In this document: positions 17,401-38,000 of the stretch, one piece after another | Layout of the letters: every line of letters starts with the position of its first letter | Position numbering within the stretch: the stretch's first letter is position 1 | Origin: Flavobacterium hydrophilum | Lineage (GTDB): Bacteria > Bacteroidota > Bacteroidia > Flavobacteriales > Flavobacteriaceae | DNA length: 64,000 bases | Assembly (NCBI RefSeq): GCF_003202405.1 | Contig: NZ_QJHL01000001.1 | Location: 2,232,001 to 2,296,000 of the forward strand | Direction: 5' to 3' | Notes under the pieces: generated by a model | The model's database searches: none | Told to the model about the DNA's origin: nothing | Seen by the model: the letters and a program-made list of their open reading frames with translations, nothing else | Translations under genes and position numbers: made by a program

Positions 17401-17649
17401 ACCTTTAGTCTCTTTTTTAGTAAAAGTTGGTACCGGAAGGTTTCGATTTACAAAAGTCAGTGAAGCATTGTCTGTAAACTTACCGTCGGCGCTCCATTCC
17501 ATACGGATTACACGGGGTGAAAGCACTGTAAATCGGGCATTTCCTGAAACTACCACAGCTTGTGGACTGGCTTCCGGTTTGTATTCCTGAGCCGATAGAG
17601 CAGCCGACGCAAGACAAAAAATTGTAACTAAAAATTGTTTTGTTTTCAT
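14404..17649 (-). CDS. GH31 glycosidase with chitobiase-like and PA14 domains
   Basis: The start at 17649 is chosen because it begins a clear signal peptide (MKTKQFLVTIFCLASAALSAQ), giving 1081 residues. The GH31 barrel has the nucleophile motif FWWLDWQQWG (Asp375) and the acid/base motif GFSGDTHVTW (Asp430). GH31 enzymes act on alpha-linked glucose, xylose, galactose or related residues; specificity is not readable. After the barrel come a DUF5110-like region, a chitobiase C-terminal-like strand domain (IYYTTDGSVPT) and a PA14 domain (YTFYMASDDGSKLYINNQLI). It has no T9SS tail, so it is probably periplasmic, unlike its operon neighbours. Last gene of the PUL. Confidence 0.9.
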   Translation of the reverse strand: MKTKQFLVTIFCLASAALSAQEYKPEASPQAVVVSGNARFTVLSPRVIRMEWSADGKFTDNASLTFVNRNLPVPTFTKKETKGELLIATDVVKLKYKKGAGKFDDKNLSVDFIVNGKPTTWKPGLANGKNLLGTTRTLDGVDGPAKELEKGIISRDGWYLIDDSERPLFDNSEWPWVMARPGDKPQDLYLFAYDSNYKAALKDYTDIAGKIAMPPRFAFGAWWSRYREYSDTEFRDLVGEFKMHDVPLDVFVIDMDWHIKSLPEFFKNGQRQRDQAGEDSGWTGFTWNKNLFPSPEKFLKWTNEQHLKTCLNLHPASGIQPYEEAYPEMAKAMGIDPATKKYVPFDITDKKFATNYMDIVLRPIEKAGVDFWWLDWQQWGSTNIPGVNPTIYLNYVHYSDMERQNKVRPLIFHRWGGLGNHRYQIGFSGDTHVTWESLNYQPYFTATAANVGFGYWSHDIGGHQGDAGTAELYTRWIQWGVFSPIFRTHATAAPQHERRIWAYPIDNFLIMREAYQIRYSLVPYLYNEARNTYETGVSTVHPMYYDYPKEESSYAIPNQYMFGRDMIVHPITKPIEKGSVFLSHETWLPEGKWYETSTGSIIKGGKKITMPFTLGDIPVFVKEGAIIPMQSKVERTDEKPLNPLILSFYPGKKGSLRLYEDEGNNNNFKKNAFTFTPVTSEQTGNKMNIVISPVEGSFPGMLTSRGYELRFPCSFPPTTVSVNGQNIPYSEEAKVGSWSYAGNDFETHVYVPESPTNKTVSVQVQFPDYDQQLLSGKKGQIKYMKNFETFRLLNSWNDGLHSPFEIMSLSQFGQNLEYNLADIKKEIDGFGDRWNSTLLTIQSASETNKVYKPYYEFLKNYGSIAERPEFSNSAELDSDTKAKVEFVQNGTDKIYYTTDGSVPTRSSQLYTKAFEVTVPARVNAIAVPAGQGSNSSVISKIFYNKKTGLNYSLYKGRWSKIPDFSKLTPVDKGFAPDFDLNKIKHDSNDYGLVYNGFINIPEDGKYTFYMASDDGSKLYINNQLIIDNDGLHGFDEKKSEIMLKKGLLPIRLEYFQESYGDGLSVEFSSDKITRTSLFPSI

Positions 17650-17678
17650 ATTCTCATTTAAAATTAATCTTTGATAAC

Positions 17679-17737
17679 ACTTCAAATAATTTCATTAAAA
17701 ATAACAGCCATTTATAAGTAATAACATTATTTGAAGT
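17679..17737. repeat. Intercistronic inverted repeat between GH31 and GH43 genes
   Basis: ACTTCAAATAAT (17679-17690) is the exact reverse complement of ATTATTTGAAGT (17726-17737), with a 35-base AT-rich spacer. It could form an mRNA hairpin between cistrons. Confidence 0.65.
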
Positions 17738-20324: not shown

Positions 20325-20388
20325 AAACATCCCTAAAAAGCAATTTCTTTATAATTTGAACTTTTAAAGGGCATTTTTAGAGATGTTT
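20325..20388. repeat. Intercistronic inverted repeat between the two GH43 genes
   Basis: AAACATCCCTAAAAA (20325-20339) and TTTTTAGAGATGTTT (20374-20388) are reverse complements with one mismatch. The position directly upstream of the next cistron suggests an mRNA structure. Confidence 0.65.
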
Positions 20389-20427
20389 ACATTAACTTAA
20401 TTGTTATTTTTAAAACATGTTTTCACA

Positions 20428-22545
20428 TTATTTCTTAATAAATTGTTTCGTAATTTTTGTGCCCTCTTTTTCAAAAACAGCAAAATAAATTCCCTTTGCT
20501 AAACCCGAAACATCTAAACTGTTATCCTTTGCTTTTTGCTCCATAACAAGACTTCCTGTTTGAGAAAAAACACGAATCTGGATCCCTTTCATATCTATAT
20601 TAAAGAAAAGTGTGTTTTTTACCGGATTTGGATATATGTTTATAGCTTCCGCTCCGGCTTCATCCTGGGATTCTAGTTGTGATTTCGCTATTTTTGAAGT
20701 ATTTGTCGGTTTTATTAAATCCAGTTTCCAGCGCTGGGCATCGTTATTATTATCTGTATATTGATGTACATTTGTTCCCGGTTCAGCCAGATTGTTTACG
20801 ACATCCAAACATTGATTGGTGTTTTTGTGGGTAAGTTTAAAATAGCCATCGGACATCAATTCTATTTTCCAGCGCTGTGCATTGGTACCAAGATCTGTCC
20901 ATTGCTGCACATTTGCTCCAGCCACACTGCTATTGTTATCCACATCTAACACCTGATTTGTTCCTCTGTGCGTTAATTTGTAAAAGCCATCAGCTTCCTT
21001 TGTAATTACCCAGCGCTGTGCATCCGTTTCATTAGGATTATGCTGCTGTACATTTGCCCCTTGCTGTGTACTGCCTCCACTCACATCAAGTCTTTGATTA
21101 GTTCCTTTATGAGTTAGTCGGTACACCCCTCCAGAAACAATTGGAACTTCAATAAGATCAAATCTCCATCGCTGAGCATCATTATTTGTATTAGGATTAT
21201 CATTCCATTGCTGTACATTGGCACCCGACTGACTGCTGTTATTATCCACATCTAAAACCTGAGTTGTTCCTTTGTGAGTGAGTTTTCCATAACCATCAGA
21301 CATCATTTCAATTTTCCAGCGTTGTGCATCGGTACCAAGATCTGTCCATTGCTGCACATTGGCTCCGGCCACACTGCTATTATTATCAACATCCAAAACC
21401 TGAGTAGTTCCTTTATGCGTTAATTTATAATAACCATCTGCCTCAAGTGTAACAATCCAGCGCTGTGCATCGTTTCCATTGTCTGTACTTTGCTGAACAT
21501 TTGCTCCAGACTGACTTCCATTATTTAAAACATCCAGGCATTGATTCGTTCCTTTGTGGGTTAATTTGTAAATACCTCCCGAAACGATACTTTGCGTAGG
21601 ACATGACAAATCCGGTACTCTGGGGGCAACTCCATAATTGGTCATATTTACCGTTTCAATCAAATCGGCTGAGTTGAAATACATTCTGTCAATAGCAATT
21701 TTCCTGTCACCTGATGTACCGTTTTCATACCTGTGGTAAATGATATAATATTCATCACAATTACCCATTTTCAATACGCCATGATGTCCCGGACCTTTGT
21801 CTTCTATGTTAGAACTTAATATTTTACCTCTGTATGTCCACGGTCCCATAGGCGAATTAGAAGTTGAATATTGTACATTATAAGTATCATTAAACCAGGA
21901 TCCATTGGAGTACGTCATATAATAAATTCCTTTTCTTTTTATCATATAAGGAGCTTCGGTATAATTTTGAGGCGTTATATTTGTAGGTCCGGTCGCCAAA
22001 CTAATCATATCAGCATTTAACTTACGAACCACCATTTTGCTTTTACCTGATCCTCCATAATAAATGTAAGCTTGTCCGTCATCATCAATGAAAACATTGG
22101 CATCAATAATATCGTCTGTGTAAGGATCTGTTCCGATAAGCGGCGCACCTATATCTGTAAAGGGACCAATTGGGGTATTACCTACGGCGCAACCAATTTT
22201 GGTCTCGGCAGTATAATAGAAATAGTATTTATTATTGCGAAAAACCACTGCCGGAGCCCAGCCGTTATTTTGTGACCAGGGGCTATCCGGATAAAGATCG
22301 AAAATAAGACCTTCATCAACCCAATTGGTCAAATCATTTGAGGAATACGCATGAAACTGAGTACCGTAAATAGCAGTAGTATAGATATAGTATTTGTTGT
22401 TAAAGTAATGAATTTCCGGGTCAGCCCCGGTAAATAATGGGTTTCCGCTGAGCTGTGCCTGTACAGGAACTGCAAAACATATAAACATTAAAAATGCTGC
22501 GAAACGCAATCTGAATTTAGCAATCTGATTATATATTTGTATCAT
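20428..22545 (-). CDS. Secreted GH43 with six ricin-type repeats and T9SS tail
   Basis: This 705-residue paralogue of the neighbouring GH43 has the same order without PA14. The signal peptide ends near residue 30 (AVPVQAQ) and the GH43 domain covers about 34-315, with GADPEIHYF (Asp42), DDIIDANVF and TEAPYMIKR as catalytic motifs. Six ricin-type units lie at about 320-610, and a T9SS type A tail starts at INIYPNPVKNTLFF (about 635) and ends TKQFIKK. The high similarity of the GH43 domains points to tandem gene duplication. The substrate is probably the same class of furanosyl side chain. It follows the GH76 gene with only an 18-base gap, so it is co-transcribed. Confidence 0.93.
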   Translation of the reverse strand: MIQIYNQIAKFRLRFAAFLMFICFAVPVQAQLSGNPLFTGADPEIHYFNNKYYIYTTAIYGTQFHAYSSNDLTNWVDEGLIFDLYPDSPWSQNNGWAPAVVFRNNKYYFYYTAETKIGCAVGNTPIGPFTDIGAPLIGTDPYTDDIIDANVFIDDDGQAYIYYGGSGKSKMVVRKLNADMISLATGPTNITPQNYTEAPYMIKRKGIYYMTYSNGSWFNDTYNVQYSTSNSPMGPWTYRGKILSSNIEDKGPGHHGVLKMGNCDEYYIIYHRYENGTSGDRKIAIDRMYFNSADLIETVNMTNYGVAPRVPDLSCPTQSIVSGGIYKLTHKGTNQCLDVLNNGSQSGANVQQSTDNGNDAQRWIVTLEADGYYKLTHKGTTQVLDVDNNSSVAGANVQQWTDLGTDAQRWKIEMMSDGYGKLTHKGTTQVLDVDNNSSQSGANVQQWNDNPNTNNDAQRWRFDLIEVPIVSGGVYRLTHKGTNQRLDVSGGSTQQGANVQQHNPNETDAQRWVITKEADGFYKLTHRGTNQVLDVDNNSSVAGANVQQWTDLGTNAQRWKIELMSDGYFKLTHKNTNQCLDVVNNLAEPGTNVHQYTDNNNDAQRWKLDLIKPTNTSKIAKSQLESQDEAGAEAINIYPNPVKNTLFFNIDMKGIQIRVFSQTGSLVMEQKAKDNSLDVSGLAKGIYFAVFEKEGTKITKQFIKK
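20715..21590 (-). repeat. Six tandem ricin-type coding repeats with near-identical copies
   Basis: Units of about 141 bases recur. The segments around 20870-20960 and 21312-21402 are nearly identical at DNA level, both containing GGTACCAAGATCTGTCCATT, which points to recent duplication or gene conversion inside the gene. Confidence 0.85.
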
Positions 22546-22563
22546 AATTTCTACTGTTTGATT

Positions 22564-24885
22564 TTATTTTTTAATAAATCGTTTTGTAATTTTTGCTCCA
22601 TCTTTTTCAAAAACTATAAAATAAGTTCCTGCAGCCAAACCTGAGACATTTACATTATCGGACTGGATTTTTTGTTCAGAAACTGAGTTTCCTGTTAAAG
22701 AAAAAATACGTACCTGAGTTCCTGAGACTTCGCCGGTAAAAAACAATGTACTTTCAACCGGATTCGGATATACATTTATAGCTGTTGCTGCGGTTTCGGT
22801 TTCTGTTGTCAATTCTGTTTTTGCAAATTTTGCTGTACCTGCAGGAATCAATTTCCAGTGTCCGCTCGCCTGATTTGCATTTTCCCATTGTTGTACATTT
22901 CCACCGCTTACCGTACTAAAACCAGCTACTTCGACTAACTTTCCGCTATGTTTAGCTACCAGTTTGTAATAGCCATCACCTGTTGATACGGCTATAAATT
23001 GCTGGTTCGCTGCACCAACATAAGTCCATTGATGCACATTCGCTCCATTCTCTACACTTACTCCTGCAACATCTACTGCTTTGCCACTGTTAATCCCCTG
23101 GATTTGATAAGCTCCGTCGCCAGCATCAATTAATTTGAATTTTTGATTATTGGCTCCTGTATAATTTCCTTGTGCAATATTTCCCCCGTCTGCAGTACTT
23201 AGTCCCCAGACATCCATATATAAACCACTATGGCGATTTTGTAAATAGTAGGTTATATTTCCTAAATTAGGAGTTCCGTTTGGACGAATACGCAAAGAGG
23301 TTGTTCTGTCATTCCAATCACCGGCCCAATCAGTAGTGGCTGTAAAATCTTTTGAAGCTCCGGTAAAATTATCACCATCATAAACTGTTACTTTGTATCC
23401 TTCTGTGATTTTTAAAGAGGTAATGTCATTATCCAGGATTCCTTTTGCACGAAGTTGTGCGAGCGTATAATCTCCTACATTAAGACCTGCAGTGTATCCT
23501 GAATAGGTTATATCCTGATACACATTCACTAAAGAAGTGTTTGTATCTACTATTTTTAAGGACGAAATTCTGTCATTCCAGTCTGCAAGCCATGCTGAAT
23601 TTGCAGTAAATACTTTGGAAGCACCACCAAAATTATCGTTTTCATAAACCGTTACCACATAACCGGCAGGAACTGTTAAAGATGTGATATCATTATCAGA
23701 AATACCTCTTGCCTGAAGTTGTGCCAAAGTATAATTTCCTGTCGAAAGCTGTGAATAAAAACCTCCGTAATTAATATTCTGATAAGCGTGAACCTTATTC
23801 AAACTCGCAACAGATTCAAACAAATGAAGACCTGCAGACTGAGTAGACAAATCAATCGTTCCGGTTGGTACTGAATCCCAATAGGAATTGATTAAATAAT
23901 TGGTTTTATTCACAGCTTTAGCCCACACATAATTGCTGGTGTAATTGATAACACCCAAATACCTGTCTTTTTGAGCCTGTGTTAAATTTCCCATACGGAC
24001 AAATTCTATAAACCACTTGGCAAAAATTCCTTTGAATAAACCTCCGTCTCCCTGTCCATTTTCATTCAGGAAAAATACACCTCCGTTATAATTTCTGTAA
24101 TTCATCATAAACTCACATGCCTTGATGCCATCATCTATATAGGATTGTGTACCTGTAACAAGATTAAGTTCTAAACAAGCAGCGATGAACATACCTGAGT
24201 TATATGAGAACTGCCAGTCAGGATCCAAATTGGTTGGACTGTCCCATATTCCTCCCTGCGCATTAAAAACATTTGCTTTCATCCAGGTATGAATGTCTTT
24301 TGCCATTTGCAGGTTGCTGTTATCGCCTTCCAATTGATACAATTTCACAGCAATAACAATAGCAGGACCATTGGCAATTGAGTTTTTACAAGGAGTATTA
24401 CACCCTTTTTTCCATGACATAGCACCATTTGTATATCCGGTTTTAATCTCTGTCCACATTTGATGTACGGCATCTAAAAACTCCGGATCTTTGGTTGCAT
24501 TGTAGCAGTTGAAACTCGCCAGACAAAGCCATTCCAAATCATCATAGAAATCATTGTGATAGGTTCCCGCACCATACGAATTGTATTTTCTGATTCCTGC
24601 AATGATGCTTTTCATTCGGTCTTTATAAACAGAATTACGAGTTCTTTGATAAGCATCTGCTAATGTTTCCAGCGTATGTGCCTGTATCCAGTATCCGTAA
24701 CCATAAGGATCATTGTCTGAAGCGCTGTTATGTTTATAATAACTTTTATCAGCAGACATAAAAATAGTGTTAGTTCCGTTCTGTAGATTTTCTGCCCGTT
24801 GATCAGCTGTTTGTGAAAATAAATTTGAAACGCATAACAAAAAGAACAGCATGCAAACGCCTCCGGCTTTAAATAGATTCTTCAT
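22564..24885 (-). CDS. Secreted GH76 with beta/gamma-crystallin and ricin-type modules
   Basis: The 773-residue protein has a signal peptide (to about residue 25) and a GH76 domain (about 30-365). The catalytic Asp pair is visible in NDFYDDLEWLCLA (Asp115-Asp116). GH76 enzymes are endo-alpha-1,6-mannanases or related transglycosidases. Two crystallin-type Greek-key pairs (365-538) follow, seen as VTVYENDNFGGASKVFTA and VTVYDGDNFTGASKDFTA, each with W(N)DRxxSL. A ricin-type trefoil covers 545-675 and a T9SS type A tail starts at INVYPNPVESTLFF. The protein should be secreted or surface-bound. Its paralogue is at 29163-31487, with a GH31 gene between them. Confidence 0.93.
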   Translation of the reverse strand: MKNLFKAGGVCMLFFLLCVSNLFSQTADQRAENLQNGTNTIFMSADKSYYKHNSASDNDPYGYGYWIQAHTLETLADAYQRTRNSVYKDRMKSIIAGIRKYNSYGAGTYHNDFYDDLEWLCLASFNCYNATKDPEFLDAVHQMWTEIKTGYTNGAMSWKKGCNTPCKNSIANGPAIVIAVKLYQLEGDNSNLQMAKDIHTWMKANVFNAQGGIWDSPTNLDPDWQFSYNSGMFIAACLELNLVTGTQSYIDDGIKACEFMMNYRNYNGGVFFLNENGQGDGGLFKGIFAKWFIEFVRMGNLTQAQKDRYLGVINYTSNYVWAKAVNKTNYLINSYWDSVPTGTIDLSTQSAGLHLFESVASLNKVHAYQNINYGGFYSQLSTGNYTLAQLQARGISDNDITSLTVPAGYVVTVYENDNFGGASKVFTANSAWLADWNDRISSLKIVDTNTSLVNVYQDITYSGYTAGLNVGDYTLAQLRAKGILDNDITSLKITEGYKVTVYDGDNFTGASKDFTATTDWAGDWNDRTTSLRIRPNGTPNLGNITYYLQNRHSGLYMDVWGLSTADGGNIAQGNYTGANNQKFKLIDAGDGAYQIQGINSGKAVDVAGVSVENGANVHQWTYVGAANQQFIAVSTGDGYYKLVAKHSGKLVEVAGFSTVSGGNVQQWENANQASGHWKLIPAGTAKFAKTELTTETETAATAINVYPNPVESTLFFTGEVSGTQVRIFSLTGNSVSEQKIQSDNVNVSGLAAGTYFIVFEKDGAKITKRFIKK

Positions 24886-24933
24886 AATTTACTTCTTTAA
24901 GATTAATAACTAAACAATAAATGATGTAAAATA

Positions 24934-24978
24934 AAAAGCCTTAACCAAATCAATTTCAGTAGATTCAGTCAGGCTTTT
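24934..24978. repeat. Intercistronic inverted repeat between GH31 and GH76 genes
   Basis: AAAAGCCT (24934-24941) pairs with AGGCTTTT (24971-24978). The stem is short and GC-poor; it may be a weak terminator or a stability element. Confidence 0.5.
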
Positions 24979-24982
24979 ATGC

Positions 24983-27900
24983 TTATTTCTTTATGAATTT
25001 TCTGGAAATTTTAGTCCCATTTTTATTCGTAGTAATAAAATACAGCCCGGCATTTAGTTTAGAAACATCGATGCTGTTGTTACTCTCTACTTTTTGTTTT
25101 AAAACCAGACTGCCTGTTGGAGAAAGAATACTCACATTTACCCCAGCCATATCTGTACTAAAGAAAAGTGTATTCCCAACCGGATTCGGATAAATAAAAC
25201 TTTCTTCCTTAGTAAAATCAGGCTGGCCAAGGTTTGCCGAAATGTTTTTAATACTTACTTTATTAGTTGTCAAATTAACCGTTACCTTATATGTTCCTGT
25301 TCCTCCTGCAGGTACTTTCCACATATTATCAGGTGCTGTACATCCGGCTGCTTTAGTAAATGCAGTTCCGGACAGCGTTTGGTCTGCCACAGTTGCGTAC
25401 AACCATGTATCATCACAGCTGCCAGTGCCAGAATGAAATTTAAACTTTCCGTCAGTACTGCCATTTGCAGCAGCTAATGTTCCTGTCCATGTAAAAACAT
25501 CTAAGTCATTTGCAGATTGCTCCATCAATAAGCCTTTCGTATCATTACCTGCAGAAGTTGCATCACCCACAATTGATAAGGACTCCAGTGCTATTTTTTG
25601 GATACTTATTTTTTTAGTTTCAACATCAACAGTTATTTTATAAGTCCCAGTTTCTCCAGTTTTTACCTGCCATTTATTATCTGCAGCACAGCCGTCTACT
25701 ATTATTAGATTATTATCAGATATTGACTGATTATCTATAACTGAATTCAACCAGAGATCATCACAGAAATTATTTAAACCGGAATGAAACTTAAAATTTC
25801 CAGCTGATAATTTTCCTGTCCATGTAAAAACATTCAAATTATCATTGGATTGCTGCATTGCAAGTCCTTTTGGATCCCAGCCTATTGATGTAGCATCTCC
25901 AACAATCGCCATGGTAGTAATTGTTTTCTTTATATTAATTGTCTTAGCAACAACATCAATAATTATAGTATAAGTACCCGTCTGTCCATCACGGACTTTC
26001 CATTTTTTATCATTATTACAGCCGTTTTCTACTTTATATGTAGTTCCGGATAAAGCCTGATCTGCGTCTGTGGCCATCAGCCAAACATCATCGCAAAAAT
26101 TATTAGGACCGGAATGAAACTTGAATGCTCCCTCTGTTGTACCATTGCTTGCCGTTAATTTTCCTGTCCATTTGAAAATATTTGGCTGTTCCAGATTATG
26201 CTCCATTGGAAGTCCTTTTGGATTCCATCCTATTGAAGTGGCATCTCCAACAATAGCTAAAGAGGCAAAATCATTCAATTTTTCGACTTTGACTACTCTT
26301 GTACTAACATTAACCGTTATTTTATAGGTGCCATTTTCGCCCGCTTTTACTTTCCATTTGTTATCCGGGTATGAACAGCCATTCGCAATAACCATTGATG
26401 TAGTAGACAAAGACTGATCTGCTGCGTTTGCGTAAATCCATACATCATCGCATTGTCCGCCGGTTCCGTAGTGGAATTTAAATTTCCCTTCCGTTTTACT
26501 ATTATCCGCTCTGGTAATACTTGATGATAAATGACCTGTCCAAGTGAAAACATTCAAATCTTCAACCGATTGGTTCATTGGTAATCCCATCAAATCAAAA
26601 TTCATAAGATCTGTAGCATCTCCTACAATTGCTAGTGAATTAATTGCCGGTGTTTTTTGAACCACATAGTTTAATGTCGCTTCGTCAAATGTTACGCTAT
26701 AAATACCATCAGCATTTATAGTAAATGAAATAGTATTACTGCTGTCATTGGTTTGTATCGCTTTTCCGGATATTCCTGTTGCTCCTCCCCATTCTAATCC
26801 GTTTGGATTTTTACTCTGAATAAATTTTAAGGTATAGGTCTGACCCGATTTTAAGTTTAATGCATCCAACTTCCATTTCTTTTCTCCAACATTTATCATT
26901 GGAGTTAGATTTGTATTAAAGCTACCTTTAAGAAACATCGTATTTACCATGCTTAAATCAAGGTTCTGATTAGTATCCGGGATGATTGGTATATAACGAA
27001 CCGTATTTGAAGACCAGGCTGAATATACAATTCCATTATCCGTTACATATCCTATTCTGCTGACACGATTTATGTTTTTACTTCCTCCTATCTGATTGAT
27101 AACAACCTTTAATGAGTCGGCGTTGTGTTTTGTTACATTAATTCCGTGAACTGCGTAATCATTTGATTTATATCCAAATCCATCTCCATCATCATGATAG
27201 ATTTCGCCGGCAGCAGTTCCGTCCTGTAATGGATTGATCAGGTACGTAATATTGTCGCTTTTGTAATCTGATGTACTTTGAACAACATCGGTAATTGGAA
27301 TTACTGAGCCTGGCCTTACGTACAAATGAGCCTGGTATTTATCATCTTCCGTAGTTTCAAGTTTAACTTTATTCCAGTTTCCTTTAGGTAAACTCGGATT
27401 TACAGCCCATCTTGGAACTACCAGTAAATCTTTTCCTAACAGGAAAGCCTGCTGTTCAGTTCGTAAACTCAGATCCGTATTATCAGCAAAGAAAACAGGT
27501 CTCATCAAAGGCATTCCGGTTTCTGAAGCTTCTCTTAACAAGGTATACATATACGGAAGAAGACGGTATCTGCGATTAACAGCTGTACGCGAAACATTTT
27601 CAATCTGCGATCCAAAAACCCATGGCTCCTGATTAACAGAGTTGTTTGCAGCATGATTTCTTGAAAATGGATAATAAGCGCCTAAAGCCATCCAATGTCC
27701 TAATAAATCTGGCGTACAATCGTTGTTAAAGCCACCAATATCAGCACCTGAAATTGGCTGACCTGAAAGACCTAATGTGATTGACATTGGGACCGACAGT
27801 TTTAAATGCGCCCAAGAAGAAGAATTATCTCCCGTCCAGGTAGCTGCATATCTTTGGCCTCCCAAAAAGTTGGAACGAGACAAAACAAACGGACGCTTAT

Positions 27901-29107
27901 CCGGATTGGCTGCAACTATTCCTTCTCGGCTTGCTTTCACCATCAAATAGCCATATACATTGTGATATCTTAAATGACTTCCTGCAGGCATAGTCCCTCC
28001 TCCACGATGCAGATTATCTTCTGGCATTGTTTTGTTTGGAGTCTCAAACACAGAAGGTTCATTCATGTCATTCCAGATTCCGTCAATTCCAGTTTTCATG
28101 AAATCTTTATACAATCCGGCCCACCAGGTACGGGTTTCCGGTCTTGTATAATCTGGAAAGGCAACATCACCGGGCCAGACCTGGCCGTTAAATTCTGTAC
28201 CATCTGCCTTTTGTACCCAATGATTACCCGCTTTTCCCTGATCGTATACAAAATAACCCGTTTGTTTTTTTACACCGGGATCAATCATATAGACAGCTTT
28301 GAAATTTTTAGTATGTAAATAATCATTCAGGCCTTTAGGATTACTGAATGTGCTTTGATTAAAGGTAAATACCTTGTATTGATCCATATAATCAATGTCC
28401 ATCCAAATTACATCGCATGGAATTTTTCGATTCCTGAATTCATCAGCAATACTTTTCACCTTTGAATCCGGAGTATACGTAAACCTGCTTTGCTGAAAAC
28501 CTAGTGTCCATAAAGCAGGAAGTTCTATTTTCCCTGTTAATTCCCCAAGGGTTTTCACCAATTCCTGAGGACTGTTTCTTTCAATCACAATCACTCTGAA
28601 TCCGGGACCTTCTGATGTTATCGTTACCGGATTTGTAATCACAAAAGATTGTTTCCAGGTATGATCGGCAATAATTCCGAAAGCTGTACCATCAGGACGA
28701 ACTCCCATAATCCATGGATGTGACTGATAAAGACGAGTACCATTGTCAATCCAGTAATTAGGTGCCTCGCTATTCCATAATGTTACCTGAGTATCATTAC
28801 GTTTTAATGGTCCTGATACTTCACCATTTCCATAAAAATCCACACTTCCTGTATAGGAAATTTTCACTGTGCTTTTACCATTTACTGTACTAAAAACAGG
28901 TTTAATTGACCAGGATGCAGGAACAGTTCCTTTATCGGTCAAATCATTTAGAAAAATTAGTGAAGGTAAAGTATGCGATGGATTGAAATTGTTTGGATAA
29001 AAAACAGCAATATTGTCCCCGGCCATATTTGAAGTCTGGCCCCGGGTCATGAATACGTTCAGTACCGTTATTGAAAACAGCATGAACAGTTTAAATCCTT
29101 TTTTCAT
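24983..29107 (-). CDS. Secreted GH31 fused to four SusE-like repeats and a T9SS tail
   Basis: This 1374-residue protein has a signal peptide, an N-terminal GH31 beta domain and a barrel with GIWNDMNEPS (nucleophile Asp347) and TWTGDNSSSW (acid/base Asp427). These motifs are those of the alpha-glucosidase branch of GH31. From about residue 825 to 1290 it carries four repeats of 108-125 residues, each starting xLSIVGDATS or AIVGDATS and containing FKFHSG, CDDxWL and GTGTYKxTV. They resemble the carbohydrate-binding modules of SusE/SusF lipoproteins. A more divergent similar unit precedes them. The T9SS type A tail ends SRKFIKK. The enzyme should act outside the cell, an unusual place for GH31. 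It lies between the two GH76 genes. Confidence 0.92.
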   Translation of the reverse strand: MKKGFKLFMLFSITVLNVFMTRGQTSNMAGDNIAVFYPNNFNPSHTLPSLIFLNDLTDKGTVPASWSIKPVFSTVNGKSTVKISYTGSVDFYGNGEVSGPLKRNDTQVTLWNSEAPNYWIDNGTRLYQSHPWIMGVRPDGTAFGIIADHTWKQSFVITNPVTITSEGPGFRVIVIERNSPQELVKTLGELTGKIELPALWTLGFQQSRFTYTPDSKVKSIADEFRNRKIPCDVIWMDIDYMDQYKVFTFNQSTFSNPKGLNDYLHTKNFKAVYMIDPGVKKQTGYFVYDQGKAGNHWVQKADGTEFNGQVWPGDVAFPDYTRPETRTWWAGLYKDFMKTGIDGIWNDMNEPSVFETPNKTMPEDNLHRGGGTMPAGSHLRYHNVYGYLMVKASREGIVAANPDKRPFVLSRSNFLGGQRYAATWTGDNSSSWAHLKLSVPMSITLGLSGQPISGADIGGFNNDCTPDLLGHWMALGAYYPFSRNHAANNSVNQEPWVFGSQIENVSRTAVNRRYRLLPYMYTLLREASETGMPLMRPVFFADNTDLSLRTEQQAFLLGKDLLVVPRWAVNPSLPKGNWNKVKLETTEDDKYQAHLYVRPGSVIPITDVVQSTSDYKSDNITYLINPLQDGTAAGEIYHDDGDGFGYKSNDYAVHGINVTKHNADSLKVVINQIGGSKNINRVSRIGYVTDNGIVYSAWSSNTVRYIPIIPDTNQNLDLSMVNTMFLKGSFNTNLTPMINVGEKKWKLDALNLKSGQTYTLKFIQSKNPNGLEWGGATGISGKAIQTNDSSNTISFTINADGIYSVTFDEATLNYVVQKTPAINSLAIVGDATDLMNFDLMGLPMNQSVEDLNVFTWTGHLSSSITRADNSKTEGKFKFHYGTGGQCDDVWIYANAADQSLSTTSMVIANGCSYPDNKWKVKAGENGTYKITVNVSTRVVKVEKLNDFASLAIVGDATSIGWNPKGLPMEHNLEQPNIFKWTGKLTASNGTTEGAFKFHSGPNNFCDDVWLMATDADQALSGTTYKVENGCNNDKKWKVRDGQTGTYTIIIDVVAKTINIKKTITTMAIVGDATSIGWDPKGLAMQQSNDNLNVFTWTGKLSAGNFKFHSGLNNFCDDLWLNSVIDNQSISDNNLIIVDGCAADNKWQVKTGETGTYKITVDVETKKISIQKIALESLSIVGDATSAGNDTKGLLMEQSANDLDVFTWTGTLAAANGSTDGKFKFHSGTGSCDDTWLYATVADQTLSGTAFTKAAGCTAPDNMWKVPAGGTGTYKVTVNLTTNKVSIKNISANLGQPDFTKEESFIYPNPVGNTLFFSTDMAGVNVSILSPTGSLVLKQKVESNNSIDVSKLNAGLYFITTNKNGTKISRKFIKK
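25260..26640 (-). repeat. Four-copy coding repeat array (SusE-like modules)
   Basis: Four in-frame units of roughly 325-375 bases within the GH31 gene encode the GDATS...FKFHSG...CDD modules. They are clearly homologous at protein level and partly at DNA level. Confidence 0.85.
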
Positions 29108-29162: not shown

Positions 29163-31487
29163 CTATTTTTTCAGGAATTTTTTGGTGATTTCTTTTCCGT
29201 CTTTATGTATCGTGATGAAATATATTCCTATTTCGAGTTTCGAAACATCCACACTGTTGTCGCTATCTACGCTTTGTTTCAACACCAAACTTCCTAAAAC
29301 AGAAAAAATGTTTATCTGAGAGCCTGTTATATCAGAATTGAAAAACAGTGTGTTTTGTGCCGGATTTGGATATAGATTTAAAGATGTTATTCCGTTATGT
29401 GTTTCCACACCCAATGATTCCACTTTTATTAATTTCCATTGGCCGCTAGCCTGTGAATTGACATCTTCCCATTGCTGAACATTTGCGCCATTTGCACTAC
29501 TAAAGTTGGATACCTCAACCAGTTTACCGCTGATTCTGGGTATAATTTTGTAATATCCGTCTCCTGTTGCCACCAATACAAACTGCTGGTTTGCAGTTGC
29601 GTTATATGGTGATTGGTTCACATTCGTACCATTATCTGTGTTGTAGTCATCGATATTCAATGATTGTCCACTGTGTTTTGCAATGATTTTGTACAAACCA
29701 TCTCCTAAATGTGTAAATGTAAATTTCTGGTTATCTCCAGCAGTTGCGGTACCTTGGGCTATATTACCACCGGTTGACATACTGGAACCGGATACTTCCA
29801 TGTTCAGTGCGCTATTACGATTTTGTAATTGATAAATTATATCTCCTAAACTTGTATCTCCGTTGGCTTGAACACGTAATGATGTTGTTTTATCGTTCCA
29901 GTCTGATGATAAACCAGTATCAGAAGTAAAGTCTTTTGACTGCCCGGTAAAATTATCTCCTTCATACAGTGTAACTTTAAAACCTTTCGATATTTTGAAC
30001 GAACTAATGTCATTGTCCGTAATCCCTTTTGACTGAAGTTGTGCCAAAGTATAATCTCCAATATCAAGAGCCACATTATAACCTGTAAAATTTACATTTT
30101 GAAAAACATTCATTACAGAACTATCAATAATTAAAGGATTTGTAACCGGAGGATTTGTATCTTCAATTTTTATTGACGAAATCCTGTCATTCCAATCGGC
30201 AAGCCAGGCGGTATTTGCCGTGAACGTTTTAGAAGCACCTGTGAAATTATCATTTTCATAAACGGTAACCACATAACCAGCGGGAACGGTTAAAGAAGTA
30301 ATGAAGTTATCAGGAGCACCTCTGGAAAGCAGCTGTGCCGATGTATAATTGCCCGGTGCAAGCTGCGAATAAAATCCGGCATAATTAATATCCTGATAAA
30401 CGTGTACTTTGTTTAAACTGGCAACAGATTCAAATAAATGAAGACCGCTTGTCTGAGTCGATAAATCAATCGATTCTGTTGGTAATTTCCGCCAATTGTA
30501 GTTCGTTAAATAATTAGATTTGCTTACTGCATTGTTCCAGGCATAATCAGCCGTATAATTAATGATTTGCAGATAATGTTCTTTTCTGGCCTGAGGAATA
30601 TTTCCAATACGAACAAATTCTATAAACCATTTTGCGAAAATTCCTTTGAATAAACCACCGTCTCCCTGCCCTGTTTCATTTAAGTAAAAAGCACCACCGC
30701 TATATTTTCTGTAATTCATCATAAAATCAGCAGCTTTCATACCATCCTCGATATAGGATTGCTGACCGGTAACAAGGTTAAGTTCCAGACAGGCTGCAAT
30801 AAACATTCCTGTGTTATATGAAAATTGCCAGTCAGGATCCTGATTTGTTGGAGAATCCCAAATTCCGCCCTGATCGTTAAGCACATTGGCTTTCATCCAG
30901 GCATGGATATCTTTTGCCATTTGCAAGTTTGAATTATCACCTTCTAATTGGTATAACTTCACAGCAATAACTATTGCGGGACCGTTGGCAATTGAGTTTT
31001 TACATGGAGTGCTGCATCCTTTTTTCCATGAAACAGCACCGTTTGAATATCCTGTTTTTATTTCATCCCATATTTGATGTACGGCATCAAGAAACTCAGA
31101 ATCTTTAGTGGCGTTGTAGCAATTAAAAGCAGCTAAACACAGCCATTCCAGGTCATCATAGTAATCATTACGATACGTTCCTGCAGCATATCTGTTATAT
31201 TTTCTGATTCCGGCAATGATACTTTTCATTCTGTCTTTGTAGACAACATTGCGGGTTCTTTGATAAGCATCTGCTAAAGTTTCCAGCGTATGTGCCTGTA
31301 TCCAATAGCCATAGCCATAAGGGTCATTATCTGAAGCACTGTTCAGTTTATAATAACTTTTATCAGCAGACATGAAAATAGTATTGGTTGCATCCTGAAT
31401 CTTATCTGCGCGCTGATCAGCTGTTTGTGCAGATAACTTTGCGCTCAATATCAAAAAGAACATCATCTTTATTACGTTTCTAATCAT
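29163..31487 (-). CDS. Secreted GH76 with beta/gamma-crystallin and ricin-type modules, second copy
   Basis: The 774-residue protein is a close paralogue of the one at 22564-24885. Signal peptide, GH76 domain with NDYYDDLEWLCLA (Asp111-Asp112), two crystallin-type units (about 362-539; VTVYENDNFTGASKTFTA and VTLYEGDNFTGQSKDFTS), ricin-type trefoil (546-682) and a T9SS type A tail (LNLYPNPAQNTLFF, ending KKFLKK) are in the same order. A short insertion precedes the second crystallin unit. The GH76 domains are much more alike than the ricin parts. It is the first enzyme gene after susE, 447 bases away, so it may have its own promoter. Confidence 0.93.
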   Translation of the reverse strand: MIRNVIKMMFFLILSAKLSAQTADQRADKIQDATNTIFMSADKSYYKLNSASDNDPYGYGYWIQAHTLETLADAYQRTRNVVYKDRMKSIIAGIRKYNRYAAGTYRNDYYDDLEWLCLAAFNCYNATKDSEFLDAVHQIWDEIKTGYSNGAVSWKKGCSTPCKNSIANGPAIVIAVKLYQLEGDNSNLQMAKDIHAWMKANVLNDQGGIWDSPTNQDPDWQFSYNTGMFIAACLELNLVTGQQSYIEDGMKAADFMMNYRKYSGGAFYLNETGQGDGGLFKGIFAKWFIEFVRIGNIPQARKEHYLQIINYTADYAWNNAVSKSNYLTNYNWRKLPTESIDLSTQTSGLHLFESVASLNKVHVYQDINYAGFYSQLAPGNYTSAQLLSRGAPDNFITSLTVPAGYVVTVYENDNFTGASKTFTANTAWLADWNDRISSIKIEDTNPPVTNPLIIDSSVMNVFQNVNFTGYNVALDIGDYTLAQLQSKGITDNDISSFKISKGFKVTLYEGDNFTGQSKDFTSDTGLSSDWNDKTTSLRVQANGDTSLGDIIYQLQNRNSALNMEVSGSSMSTGGNIAQGTATAGDNQKFTFTHLGDGLYKIIAKHSGQSLNIDDYNTDNGTNVNQSPYNATANQQFVLVATGDGYYKIIPRISGKLVEVSNFSSANGANVQQWEDVNSQASGQWKLIKVESLGVETHNGITSLNLYPNPAQNTLFFNSDITGSQINIFSVLGSLVLKQSVDSDNSVDVSKLEIGIYFITIHKDGKEITKKFLKK

Positions 31488-31934: not shown

Positions 31935-33134
31935 CTATAGTTTCTTTAACTGAATAGTCAGATTCACAGGGTTTACGATAAGTTCGTAATCACCAGTCTC
32001 CAGAATATCCCATTTGTCATCCTTACCAGAGCCTGCAGGTTTCAAAAACATTGGTGTAGGTGGAGCATCAGGTACAAGTACAGTATGATTTGTTGCAGGC
32101 TGAAAACCTCTACCTCCCCAGTCGCCTTGCTGTGTATAAAGTTTAAACCCTTCCTTTTCATCACCACCACCATTTGGTTTAACAGCTTCAAACCTTCCTT
32201 TGAATGTATATACTTCTGGATTTTTAGGATCCCAGTTCATTTGTTTTGCCTTTCCAATATCCCAGCGGATGCCTGATATCGAATGCCCTACCATATAAAC
32301 ACCTGGGTAAGGTACATATCCAAGAGCATAGATTCCCTTATCAATATCCATATATAAAGAATGACGGCCTGATTGAGTTACTTTAAAAACATTATCTGCT
32401 GTTCTTTGATCTGTTTGGTTATACACAAGAGTATTTCCTGCTGCCGGATCGTAAGATGGCAACTCGCTGCCCGGTTTTTCAATAACTTTGAATGAACCAA
32501 CTGAAAAGTCTCCAAGATAAGTGTATATTGTTCTTTCTGTTATTTCAGGTAAACTTTTACCCGTATTATAATCCCAGCTGCCGCTTATAGCATCACCAAC
32601 CATAAACAACGGCAATGGTCCCGGGCTATAACTTGTAGCAATAAAACTGGATGTAGATACTTCCGGCAGCTGAAACTGCTTACTATTATCTACTCTGGCT
32701 ATTATTTGCACTTCAAGATTTGTAGCAACACCTCCCGGGCGTTTAAAATTTTTCAGTAATAAATCGTTTAACTGCCTTACCGTGTAAGATTTGGTAAAAA
32801 CTCCTGCCGGAATTTCTTCTGTAATTACAGTATTTTTCGGATCATCTTCATCCAGGCCTTCGCTAAATTTATTTCCTTCGATATCTATACGGAAAAAGTA
32901 GGTTAAAGTAGTTCCGGCTCCTCTGTCATTTCCTTGTGTCCAGGTAAAAGTTATTGCGTTTTGTTCCTCATTTTCTTTAACCAATACAACTTCTTTCCCG
33001 GAAAGACTTAAAGTCAAAGGATTAGCAAAATCAGGCTCCTTAAGCCAGTCAGCATTCTCAAGTCCTTTATCTTCACAAGAGACAAGAACGATACTCATTA
33101 TTATAAATGAGATAATATTTTTTATATTTTTCAT
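31935..33134 (-). CDS. SusE/SusF-like outer-membrane glycan-binding lipoprotein
   Basis: The start at 33134 gives a 399-residue protein with a lipoprotein signal (MKNIKNIISFIIMSIVLVSC). The N-terminal SusE domain is seen as ADWLKEPDFANPLTLSLSG and AITFTWTQGNDRGAGT. Two C-terminal modules (PLPLFMVGDAISGSWDYN and GVYMVGHSISGIRWDIGK) match the SusE/SusF carbohydrate-binding repeats. It would sit on the cell surface beside SusCD and hold the glycan. It follows susD after 17 bases and belongs to the same transcript. Confidence 0.9.
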   Translation of the reverse strand: MKNIKNIISFIIMSIVLVSCEDKGLENADWLKEPDFANPLTLSLSGKEVVLVKENEEQNAITFTWTQGNDRGAGTTLTYFFRIDIEGNKFSEGLDEDDPKNTVITEEIPAGVFTKSYTVRQLNDLLLKNFKRPGGVATNLEVQIIARVDNSKQFQLPEVSTSSFIATSYSPGPLPLFMVGDAISGSWDYNTGKSLPEITERTIYTYLGDFSVGSFKVIEKPGSELPSYDPAAGNTLVYNQTDQRTADNVFKVTQSGRHSLYMDIDKGIYALGYVPYPGVYMVGHSISGIRWDIGKAKQMNWDPKNPEVYTFKGRFEAVKPNGGGDEKEGFKLYTQQGDWGGRGFQPATNHTVLVPDAPPTPMFLKPAGSGKDDKWDILETGDYELIVNPVNLTIQLKKL

Positions 33135-33151: not shown

Positions 33152-35053
33152 TTATTTGTCCCAGAAAGGTGCCTGTACCAGATTTGGATTCTTTTCGATT
33201 TCTGCTAAGTATACAGGGAACCAATAAAAAGATTTTTTATACACTCTGTTTTGATATACGGTTCTTTTATAAAAATCATTTGCATTAGTACCGTTATAGT
33301 TCATTCCGTAAAAAGGACCATTCAGTACTGTTTCTGCTAATTTCCATCTTCTTAAATCGCTATAACGTATTCCTTCTGTACAAAGTTCAACTCTTCGTTC
33401 CATTCTTATTATCTTTCTTATACTTTCCTGATCATTGTCAACATGTATATTTAAAGCGTCGGATGCTCCAATTGTATAGGTTCTTACACCTGCTCTTTCT
33501 CTAATTTTATTAAGATAGATAAGAATATCAGCATTCCCCGGATCTGATTCATTAAGTGCTTCTGCATAGTTCAAATACACCTCTCCTAATCTAAATAGAA
33601 TTCCCTGACGTGCTGCAAAATAACCTGAACGCGGATTTCTTGTCGGATCAGTTCTTTTTCTTAATAAATAACCATTTTGTGGAGCATCATGTGTATGATT
33701 ATTATCCTTCCCACCGTTAAAAAATTCGAGTCTTCTACCGTTATCTTTTCCGGCATTATCCCCTTCAGTATACCATGCTTTATCAAAATTAACTGCTAAA
33801 TAAAATCTTGGTTCACGATTGCAATACATTCTGTAAGTACCTGCCAATGTAACCAGACCGGCATTTTTAATTGCATTATATTTTGTTGTTCCTCCGGTCC
33901 AGAATCCATCTTCTGAAGAGAAACCTGTTTCAACATATCCTGAAGACGGATCAGTAATTGGCAAGCCATTATCCATAAAAAAAGCATCTACCAGAGATTG
34001 TGTTACTCCTAATCCGCCTGCGCCTCCGTTTCCACTTGGTGCTGAATGTCTGTCGTATTCTCTGTAATCACCACTTGGACGGGCGAACAATACTTCTTTA
34101 TTTCCATTATTAGCTTCTACAAGATGTAAATTTTGACAAGACATGAAGGGGTCAATTCCTCCTGCAGTATTCAATTCTGTATATAATTTATGACCTGCAG
34201 CTTCTGCATCCATAATTAATTTTTTACTCGCATCTGCAGCAATTCTCCATTTATTAGCATCATACGTAGGATTGAATAATGGTTTTCCATCTTTAGTATT
34301 ATGACCAATATATTCAGGATTTCCATTAACAAGCGGACTTGCTGCAAAAAGTAACATTCTGGCTCTAACAGCTTCACACATAATAGATGTTGCACGACCA
34401 AATTTTCTACCCTCTGTATAAGATGTTGGTAAGACCAGGGCAGCCTCTCTCAATTCTTTATCAACCCAGGTCACTATTTCATCATAAGGAGTCTGACCTA
34501 CCTGTAAATCCGGAAGATTATAATCTACTGGTGTAATTGCGTCCGGATTAAAAGGAATCGGACCATAAGTATCTAACAATAGTGTGTAATAATAGGCTTT
34601 TAAGAAATGACACTCAGCAATCATTAACTTAACTTCCTCTTGTGTCAAACCATCTTCCGGTAATGGCTTAACATTCTGGATAAATATGTTGCATTCTCTA
34701 ATTCTTTGAGGAAGTCCGTTCCAATATCCCGGTGCCCATTGTGAACCTACTGACCAGTCACCCAGAATAAAAGGTATTACATCCCAGCCATATTGACGCC
34801 ATCTCTCAGATGGAGTAATATCATCTGCTAAAATTTCCCATCCGGTCTGACGGACAGTTCCTCCCCAAATAGGATCAGGAATCCTGGAATAGCAGGATGC
34901 TAACCAGTTCTCTACTTTTGTTTTACTCTGAAAAACTGCATCAAGAGTAAGTTCGGTGTCGCTCTCTTTATCTAAATAATCTGAACATGATGACGATAAA
35001 AATAATCCTAAAAAAAGGAATATTGATCTAATATATATATGTTTCATTTTCAT
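33152..35053 (-). CDS. SusD-like surface glycan-binding lipoprotein
   Basis: The 633-residue RagB/SusD family protein has a lipoprotein signal ending LFLSSSCSDYLDK. The TPR-like helical region includes IAECHFLKAYYYTLLLDTYG, and the C-terminal part has EVYLNYAEALNES and RGIRYSDLRRW-like sequence (CTEGIRYSDLRRWKLAE). SusD caps the SusC transporter and delivers glycan fragments to it. It starts 10 bases after susC and precedes susE, the canonical order. Confidence 0.95.
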   Translation of the reverse strand: MKMKHIYIRSIFLFLGLFLSSSCSDYLDKESDTELTLDAVFQSKTKVENWLASCYSRIPDPIWGGTVRQTGWEILADDITPSERWRQYGWDVIPFILGDWSVGSQWAPGYWNGLPQRIRECNIFIQNVKPLPEDGLTQEEVKLMIAECHFLKAYYYTLLLDTYGPIPFNPDAITPVDYNLPDLQVGQTPYDEIVTWVDKELREAALVLPTSYTEGRKFGRATSIMCEAVRARMLLFAASPLVNGNPEYIGHNTKDGKPLFNPTYDANKWRIAADASKKLIMDAEAAGHKLYTELNTAGGIDPFMSCQNLHLVEANNGNKEVLFARPSGDYREYDRHSAPSGNGGAGGLGVTQSLVDAFFMDNGLPITDPSSGYVETGFSSEDGFWTGGTTKYNAIKNAGLVTLAGTYRMYCNREPRFYLAVNFDKAWYTEGDNAGKDNGRRLEFFNGGKDNNHTHDAPQNGYLLRKRTDPTRNPRSGYFAARQGILFRLGEVYLNYAEALNESDPGNADILIYLNKIRERAGVRTYTIGASDALNIHVDNDQESIRKIIRMERRVELCTEGIRYSDLRRWKLAETVLNGPFYGMNYNGTNANDFYKRTVYQNRVYKKSFYWFPVYLAEIEKNPNLVQAPFWDK

Positions 35054-35063
35054 TGTTTTTAAA

Positions 35064-38000
35064 TTATAAACTTACATCTAGTCCAAAAAGAATAGATTTT
35101 GTTGTTGGGTATTTTAAACCATTTGATGTACCTAACTCCGGATCCCAAAGTTTAAAATCTGAGATGTAGAACAAATTATTCGCACTGCAATAAACTCTTA
35201 CTCCTTGTAACCAGATTTTTTCAGCTACACTTTTTTTCAATGAATAACCTAATTCCAAAGTTTTCAATCGGCCAAAACTCATATCTTTTTTCCACCATGT
35301 AGATGCTACAGAATTGTTAGCATTAGTACCATAACTTAATCTAGGCCAAAACACATCCTGACTTGGGTTTTCTTCAGTCCAACGGTCGTTGTAGTTACTA
35401 TAAATATTTCCTAAAGTACCCTGGCCGCTTCCTGGTATAAAATTAGCTCCGCCAATAATTCTTTCTGATTTTGCTACACCCTGAAAGAAGAAACTAAAAT
35501 CAAATTGTTTGTATTTTGTAGTATTTCCAAATCCATACACAATTTGAGGATCTGTTGTTCCGCCTATATAACCTTCATCTAAACCGCTGATAATTCCATC
35601 AGCATTTCTATCCTTATATTTAATATCCCCCGGACGTACAACACCAAATTGTGGAATAGGAATCCCTGAAGCTAAAACATTGTTCTGAGGATTATCACTG
35701 ATAGTAGCAAAATCTTCATTTGTATATAAGCCTGTTGCAGTTAGTCCCCATAATGTATTATTTTGAATACCTGTTGCCGAGCGATAAGTCCCTTTTAAAG
35801 CCGCAGCTTCATCTCTTTCAGTCACTTTATTTTCAACATAAGTGAAATTACCACGCCAGCTCATAAAAAAATCAGGGGTTATTTGTTTGCTTATATTTAA
35901 TGAAACCTCAAGCCCTTTATTTTCCATTTTTCCAAAATTGGCCCAAGGTGCATTAATAAATCCTGCCTGACTTGGAACTGTATTTCGTGAAATAAAGATG
36001 TCCTGTCTTTTTTCCTTGAATACATCTACAGTCAAATCAATCATATTCAGTATTCCTAATTCCAAACCAAGATCTGTTTTTGCTACATTTTCCCAGGTCA
36101 GACCCGGTACTCCAATTTCGCCTTCCTCAATTCCTTCAAATTTTACTCCTGTTCCTGTACCAAAAGTATAGTCAGAGTTATTATTATCACTAATTGTAGT
36201 TAAATAAGCAAACCTTCTGTTACCTCCAATCTGATCATTTCCTACAAGTCCATAAGCACCACGGAATTTAATTTTATTAAAAATATCTCTGTATGGCTCC
36301 ATAAATTTTTCTTCACTTGCAATCCATCCTACAGCTACAGATGGGAAAAATCCATAACGGTCTTTCTTTTCGAAATTTTCTGAACCATTATATCCAAAAT
36401 TAAATTCAGCAATATATTTGCGATCAAAAGTATAAGAAGCTCTTCCTGCCAATCCCTGATGTCTGAAAGCCTGAGGTCCTCTATCATCCTGATATTGATC
36501 CTGATTATATAACAATAAACCAGCTACATCATGTTTACCATTAAAAGTGCGGTTATAAGTTGTGTTTGCTTCCAGATAAATACGTTTATTTCCAAATTCT
36601 TGTGAAGTAGTATACCCAAGATATTCCTGCCCGCTGGTATCAAGCCTATTTTTAATCAAACTCCCATCAAGATCTCTTTCAGTGGCTACATCATAGTAAA
36701 AAGGCGATTTACCACGTGTTACCCTGTTTTGAGAAAAAGAGTCAAACGAATACGTAAACTTCGCTTTTAAACCAGGAGTAACAGCTTTAAAATCCTGCTC
36801 TAATGATACCAAACTTTCAATTTTGCTTCCTCCTTGTTTGTAATATCCTTGCTGAGTACTCACAGCCCATGGATTTGGACGCTGTGGAATCTTAGGAAGA
36901 GTTCCGTCTGAATATACCGCAGGATGTGCAAAAGGAGTCGTTTCAAAAGCAAAACCAAATAATTCATCAGTACTGCTGTTTCCTTTATTAAGATTTTGTA
37001 AAAACCCTCCAATATTTACTCTTAATAAAGTTGTTTTTGATAAGTTAACATCAACATTGGAACGAACATTCGTTCTGTTAAGTTTCGTTTCTGAATCATA
37101 CGATTGTTTAGGATCTCTTGCAAGAATACCTTTTTCATTATAATGAGAAACAGTTAATGCGTATCTCAAAATTTCTGATCCCCCGGCAACATTAAAATTA
37201 GTTCTTGATGTAAAAGCATAATCTTTTGTTATGTCATCTATCCAATTTACATCAGGATATAAATCTGGATCATAATTATTAGCTGTTTTTGCAATACGGT
37301 CCTGAGAGTATAGCTCTGTGCCAGACAATTCATTTAGTAAACTCATATAAGGAGCTGCACCAATGAAAGTTGGCAATTTAGTAGGTTCCTGAACTGAATA
37401 TTCTGTTCTTAATTGTATTCTTGGAGCTCCAACGAAACCTCTTTTTGTATTAATCAAAATAACACCGTTTGCTCCTCTAACACCGTAAACAGCACTGGCG
37501 GCAGCATCTTTCAAAACGGAGAAAGACTCAATTTCTGAAGGATCAAGATCATTTAGGTTTCTTTCAATTCCATCTACCAATACCAGCGGATTTGTGGCTC
37601 CTGCAAAAGTAGAGATTCCGCGAATCCTGATATCTGATTGGTCATAACCTGGTTCACCAGATCTTTGAACCGCCATTACTCCGGTAATTTGACCTGCCAG
37701 GTTGTTACTTAAGGTACGGGCAGTACCTACCTGCAATAGCGAAGGTTTTATAGTACTAATGGCTCCTACAACTGAAGCTTTTTTCTGTGTACCATAACCA
37801 ACAACTACAACCGTCTGAAGATCACTAGTCTCTTCTGCCAGTGCTACCGTTATTTTTCTGGAATTATTTAAAGGTTTTTCGATCTCTTTCATCCCAATAT
37901 ATTTAAATACAAGGATAGCCTGAGGAGAAGATACGGTAATATTAAAAGTTCCATCAAAATCTGTCGATACTGCATTTTTTGTACCTTTTTCAAGTACTGT

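Follow-up and report, generated by a model that had tools for sequence, protein, structure and literature searches.

The gene at 24983-29107 of a 64,000-nt stretch of Flavobacterium hydrophilum DNA (the window; contig NZ_QJHL01000001.1, positions 2,232,001 to 2,296,000) was confirmed, at the level of sequence, to encode a glycoside hydrolase family 31 (GH31) alpha-glucosidase with a signal peptide, tandem SusE/DusE-type modules and a type A sorting tail of the type IX secretion system (T9SS). Probably, this fused GH31 is an exo-acting enzyme that is exported by the T9SS together with its own glucan-binding array, made up of one X25-like and four SusE/DusE-type X25 modules. This reading is based on the domains and the tail, the predicted fold of module M2, the match of the modules to BT3088, the match of residues 720-820 to amylase and pullulanase N-terminal modules, and the intact catalytic motifs; further, on the conserved architecture, the presence of SprA_N in the genome, the similarity of the catalytic part to the alpha-glucosidase II 5djw, and a third GH31 nearest to structure 7wj9, which we take to be a nigerose-specific alpha-1,3-glucosidase. 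The parts of the fused GH31 are of known kinds; their combination is rare. The features of the chain are:

24983-29107, minus strand: open reading frame of the fused GH31, 1374 aa, ATG start
29039..29107, minus strand: signal peptide, about residues 1-23, MKKGFKLFMLFSITVLNVFMTRG, without lipobox Cys, read by eye
27539..28525, minus strand: GH31 TIM barrel, residues 195-523 (PF01055, 401 bits, Pfam)
27080..27517, minus strand: GH31 C-terminal beta domains, residues 531-676 (PF21365, 30 bits, over cut-off)
26648..26950, minus strand: fifth, divergent X25/amylase-N-domain-like beta-sandwich, residues 720-820
26276..26638, minus strand: SusE/DusE-type module M1, residues 824-944
25922..26263, minus strand: SusE/DusE-type module M2, residues 949-1062
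25592..25921, minus strand: SusE/DusE-type module M3, residues 1063-1172
25238..25585, minus strand: SusE/DusE-type module M4, residues 1175-1290
24986..25195, minus strand: type A T9SS C-terminal sorting domain, residues 1305-1374 (TIGR04183, PF18962)

Catalytic part and export signals

The fused protein was placed in GH31 by its barrel together with the WxDMNE nucleophile and WTGD acid/base motifs, which are intact as WNDMNEP (residues 345-351) and WTGDN (residues 424-428); as in GH31 enzymes generally, the Asp residues of these motifs are presumably the nucleophile and the acid/base. The GH31 N- and C-domains were both above the Pfam cut-off, and DUF5110 in the C-terminal region was below it (22.1 bits). 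The best PDB relative of the catalytic part was 5djw, named alpha-glucosidase II (838 bits, residues 28-696), a 697-residue chain that spans the catalytic part alone and has neither accessory modules nor a tail. The dextranase FjDex31A (6jr6) is likewise a GH31 of Flavobacterium, from an alpha-glucan locus, but its match was far weaker (273 bits), and it is predicted to be periplasmic (PMC10316084).

The C-terminal tail scored 42.8 bits as Por_Secre_tail over residues 1305-1372 (cut-off 27) and 47.6 bits as NCBIfam TIGR04183 (cut-off 23). With this sorting domain over cut-off, the signal peptide read by eye and SprA_N in the genome (469 bits), the protein has the features of a type A T9SS substrate, from which we infer a location at the cell surface.

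The preliminary description of this DNA had regarded a shorter GH31 without modules as a probably periplasmic sister, so that one enzyme type would appear in two compartments:

44826-46991, minus strand: short GH31, 721 aa, with a signal peptide and without lipobox, modules or T9SS tail

The short enzyme is indeed probably periplasmic, judged from a signal peptide that is accompanied by neither lipobox nor tail, and glycoside hydrolases with a type I signal peptide in such loci are regarded as mainly periplasmic (PMC10316084). The two enzymes are 54% identical and have WNDMNEP and WTGDN in common, and the idea of one enzyme type in two compartments therefore stands at the family level. However, in a GH31 tree made by a quick method and with an outgroup on a long branch, the short enzyme grouped with further short enzymes of Flavobacterium, outside the clade of the fused ones; the same short build was found in the Flavobacterium relatives L116-L121. 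These separate clades do not support a recent duplication; the short GH31 is a family member of a separate lineage and not a twin.

Fold, kinship and putative platforms of the modules

Residues 824-1290 consist of four tandem modules of about 115 aa, each scoring 181-201 bits with a profile built from them, and the module boundaries agree with the span 825-1290 proposed earlier. M1-M4 and the modules of the orthologues formed a single clade in the module tree (support 100/98), indicating that the repeat reflects homology and not chance. PF16411 (SusF_SusE) was detected in the frame of the fused gene at 36.9 and 57.6 bits (cut-off 27.5) by the profile search of genomes, while Pfam hmmscan did not list it for the whole fused protein; in hmmscan it passed for the Paludibacter relative (1.3e-21).

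An AlphaFold2 model of M2, built with an alignment of 69 module sequences (pLDDT 95.5), was aligned by VIA with SusF (4fe9) at Z 12.6 over 106 residues and 2.3 A, with the Ruminococcus bromii Sca5 X25-2 (7rpy) at Z 10.2 and with SusE (4fem) at Z 8.8, compared with about 4.4 and below for unrelated chains. The fold match came from the VIA alignment; Foldseek on its own reached at best E 0.012, and a search of viral structures gave no useful match. The similarity to the SusE and SusF fold expected in the preliminary description was thus found in the model, and its claim of four SusE-like modules fused to a GH31 with a T9SS tail was borne out by the profiles, the predicted fold and the tail scores.

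In sequence, the best PDB match of the module profile was BT3088, the dextran surface glycan-binding protein (SGBP) of Bacteroides thetaiotaomicron, at 6e-55 in three stretches, whereas the match to SusF was marginal (0.008). The starch proteins SusE and SusF were therefore rejected as the closest relatives, and by sequence the modules are closer to the SusE homologues of dextran loci (DusE/SGBPdex). BT3088 (SGBPdex) and FjDusE of F. johnsoniae carry three modules of this family in tandem, but both are enzyme-free lipoproteins whose N-terminal domain is SusE/Ig-like. In contrast, the fused protein has no lipobox Cys (its first Cys is residue 231) and no detected N-terminal PF14292, the marks of a SusE-type lipoprotein, and its modules are preceded by GH31 and followed by the T9SS tail. 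The starch-binding lipoproteins SusE and SusF share the fold and the tandem layout, but are not fused to enzymes, and their sequence similarity is marginal.

SGBPs and surface enzymes are usually separate lipoproteins that meet at the SusCD transporter. The preliminary statement that SusE-type modules normally occur in separate lipoproteins holds in part: X25 modules were already known on enzymes and scaffolds, namely the Bacillus acidopullulyticus pullulanase and R. bromii Sca5/Sas20 (PMC9112005), and T9SS proteins built of modules only occur in other genomes (L186 and L182, described below). The principle of enzyme-borne X25 is therefore not new. The published carriers have the same X25 fold as here, but with GH13 or scaffoldin partners and other secretion routes, and neither GH31 nor T9SS. 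In the literature searched, which left most subscription papers outside, no description was found of SusE/DusE-type modules on a GH31 with a T9SS tail, nor of T9SS proteins built solely of such modules.

The earlier count of four SusE-like copies was correct, but a fifth module at residues 720-820 had been overlooked. This beta-sandwich was seen in an AlphaFold2 model of residues 690-1300 (mean pLDDT 82.5), and was aligned by VIA with the N/F domain of Amy703 (8jn0, Z 9.7), the N-domain of the Klebsiella maltohexaose amylase (9us6, Z 9.2) and pullulanase (2wan, Z 8.3). The homologous stretch of a Dysgonomonas protein (L040) passed X25_BaPul and AMPK1_CBM, and the Dysgonomonas and Barnesiella relatives have two domains of the 720-820 type and a T9SS tail in place of the SusE-type modules.

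Each SusE/DusE-type module also contains one Cys pair, missed in the preliminary description, with a spacing of exactly 25 residues: 886/911 in M1, 1005/1030 in M2, 1115/1140 in M3 and 1231/1256 in M4. The only other Cys residues of the protein, Cys231 and Cys464, are in the catalytic part. In the 69-module alignment, whose rows are related so that a p-value overstates the association, the two Cys went together: both were present in 25 rows, neither in 40 and one in 4. The pair is common to DusE-like modules of other Flavobacteriaceae and absent from the aligned BT3088 stretch. Each pair likely forms a disulfide.

The ligand platform of Sca5 is a Trp pair in each lobe, W509/W555 and W620/W661 (PMC9112005). 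Trp961 and Trp1009 of M2 were matched to W620/W661 by position and spacing, not by superposition, and M3 has Trp1077 and Trp1119. The first Trp is lost in M1 (Phe837 with Trp890) and in M4 (Asn1188 with Trp1235), a position that is Trp in 63 of the 69 modules. Phe and Asn are likewise found there in Flavobacterium G917, F. hibisci and F. aquicola, and Flavivirga has Trp in both. Across the five genomes compared, M2 and M3 retained both Trp; the second one was retained in all four modules. Because of the first-Trp loss in M1 and M4, the four modules are probably unequal, which makes binding by single modules an informative question.

Locus, substrate and alternative readings

The locus contains SusC, SusD, a SusE lipoprotein, two GH76, four GH43, three GH31, a GDSL protein and a hybrid two-component system (HTCS) regulator. 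The following genes surround the fused one:

14404-17685, minus strand: third GH31, with a PA14 domain; closest solved relative 7wj9, 472 bits
22564..24885, minus strand: GH76 with beta/gamma-crystallin, ricin-B and T9SS tail, next gene downstream of the fused GH31
29163..31487, minus strand: GH76 with beta/gamma-crystallin, ricin-B and T9SS tail, next gene upstream of the fused GH31
31935..33134, minus strand: SusE-like lipoprotein, start probably Met at 33134, lipobox LVSC
33152-35053, minus strand: SusD (Pfam/NCBIfam)
35064-38207, minus strand: SusC (Pfam/NCBIfam)
40296-43883: T9SS protein with GDSL lipase and Big_2 domains, 1195 aa, inside the locus
52099-56049: hybrid two-component regulator with Reg_prop repeats, adjoining the locus and likely its regulator

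The SusE-like lipoprotein scored 49 bits with PF14292 and 47 bits with PF16411, and matched BT3088 at 3e-21. Other Flavobacterium and Flavivirga loci show the same gene order, in which SusC, SusD and SusE precede the fused GH31 and GH76 and/or GH43 genes lie close by. The third GH31 had escaped the preliminary description; its relative 7wj9 we take to be LlGH31_u1. That enzyme is a nigerose-specific alpha-1,3-glucosidase (PMC9061262).

Module relatives in other Flavobacteriaceae lie within GH66-GH31-GH97 dextran loci, and FjDusE, from a locus of this type, binds dextran tightly and starch weakly (PMC10316084). Binding of an alpha-glucan by the modules is therefore likely, although the window genome lacks GH66; the substrate is perhaps an alpha-1,3- or alpha-1,6-glucan on a mixed, fungal-wall-like polymer. 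In the reading of a glucan-binding secreted enzyme, the signal peptide would lead the chain to the periplasm and the tail would take it across the outer membrane, where the modules may tether the enzyme through weak multivalent contacts between the paired aromatic platforms and an alpha-glucan or alpha-glucosylated polymer. The GH31 barrel would remove alpha-glucosyl units near the neighbouring SusC/D/E complex, and the short GH31 would handle imported oligosaccharides in the periplasm. An SGBP and an enzyme would then be united as a single secreted chain.

Several points weigh against this reading. No GH66 (PF13199) was found anywhere in the window genome, and the locus is therefore not a classical dextran locus of the FjDexUL kind. 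The flanking mannanase-type GH76 and the GH43 genes suggest that the polymer is a mixed one. The first platform Trp is absent from M1 and M4, so that some of the modules may not bind, and isolated X25 lobes of Sca5 bound nothing on their own (PMC9112005). Finally, the fused frame of F. hibisci is broken by an in-frame TAG inside M1 (L032:12536-12538). The same TAG is present in G546, apparently the same genome as L032, and either a nonsense change or a sequencing error is possible.

It is conceivable, though we regard it as unlikely, that the modules bind the other polymer of the locus, an alpha-1,6-mannan or a heteropolymer with furanosyl side chains, with the X25 fold retuned and the GH31 stripping glucosyl caps. 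The GH76 neighbours with mannanase relatives (the best PDB relative of the one at 29163..31487 is the alpha-1,6-mannanase 6shd), the GH43 genes with arabinanase/xylosidase relatives, the genome without GH66 and the two lost Trp would all suit such a polymer. However, the nearest module relatives are dextran-locus proteins, and the Paludibacter and Dysgonomonas loci, which have relatives of two GH31s and of SusC/D, contain no relatives of the window GH76 or GH43 in the stretch examined.

Somewhat less probable still is a lineage-specific accretion of modules that left function unchanged, the fused enzyme doing the job of the short GH31. Extra-domain tails and T9SS signals do occur at several separate places in the GH31 tree, and the catalytic motifs of the two enzymes are identical; but the window genome and F. 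hibisci G546 each retain both enzymes, which lie in separate clades, suggesting different jobs. That the modules mainly serve as spacers or stability elements, a disulfide-stapled stalk that keeps the enzyme off the surface with vestigial binding, is improbable. The evenly spaced Cys pairs, the sole Cys outside the catalytic part, and the first-Trp losses would fit it, but the retained Trp residues of M2 and M3 and the second Trp of all four modules would not, and related modules also build non-enzyme T9SS proteins that are difficult to explain as stalks.

Distribution and other module carriers

Full-length fused forms were found in F. hibisci, F. aquicola and Flavivirga in a search of genome contigs, and in Flavobacterium G917 by a phylum scan, with 80-92% identity in the catalytic part. 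Shorter versions are a Paludibacter form with two modules and the tail, and two Kiritimatiellota metagenome-assembled genomes with one module and without the tail. The architecture is rare within Flavobacterium: among 299 sampled genomes of this genus, the window genome and that of F. hibisci (G546) carried the fused gene, and 8 had short-build relatives with 51-55% identity. All 15 fused modules of Flavobacteriaceae formed one clade (100/98), nested in a 19-row clade (99/92) that also holds the first modules of the Paludibacter and Kiritimatiellota forms and a single module from a free protein. The simplest history suggested by these trees would be one fusion of the X domain and a module to GH31, followed by an increase to four before the Flavobacterium/Flavivirga split. 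A resident dextran locus was rejected as the module donor: the genome has no GH66, and a two-module query matched the fused gene alone there.

In F. hibisci, comparison of L032:13600-14500 with window positions 20344-25200 showed that the T9SS tail closing the fused gene, and the spacer downstream of it, are those of the window's GH43-ricin gene, with about 89% DNA identity to GH43-ricin from the T9SS tail onward, and that GH76b and GH43-ricin are missing between the fused gene and the next GH43. This arrangement appears to have arisen when recombination between the coding sequences of T9SS tails deleted the DNA between them.

Two proteins consist of SusE-type modules and a T9SS tail, both over the Pfam cut-offs: L186 (1378-3168; 597 aa, four SusF_SusE modules) and L182 (593 aa, three modules). 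No enzyme domain was found in either; modules and tail are thus as in the fused GH31, but the enzyme domain is present in the latter only. L110 and L034 are further module-only proteins with weaker T9SS tails. We tentatively suggest that, besides the lipoproteins anchored next to SusC/D, SusE/SGBP modules may have a second, T9SS-exported branch, either alone (L186, L182) or fused to an enzyme; the fused chain could then work away from SusCD, in a locus whose remaining enzymes hint at a polymer not yet linked to the modules. The natural chimeras, with one to four modules across species, together with the module-only proteins form a series for valuing binding that is joined covalently to catalysis, and for asking what binding is worth once freed from the lipid anchor; the fused GH31 illustrates the merging of a binding protein with an enzyme in one secreted chain.

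Other carriers were also observed. The L186 gene lies in a cluster that also contains SusD and a SusE-like gene encoding two modules. In the 640-aa SusD-family protein encoded at L177:1945-3864, a SusF_SusE/X25 module was matched within the SusD_RagB region (377-460), and frames of similar size with PF16411 are found in several genomes of the same family. L180:2297-4615 (773 aa) combines Melibiase_C with weak matches to an AMPK1_CBM/SusF_SusE-like module and to a T9SS tail, and is possibly another enzyme bearing such a module.

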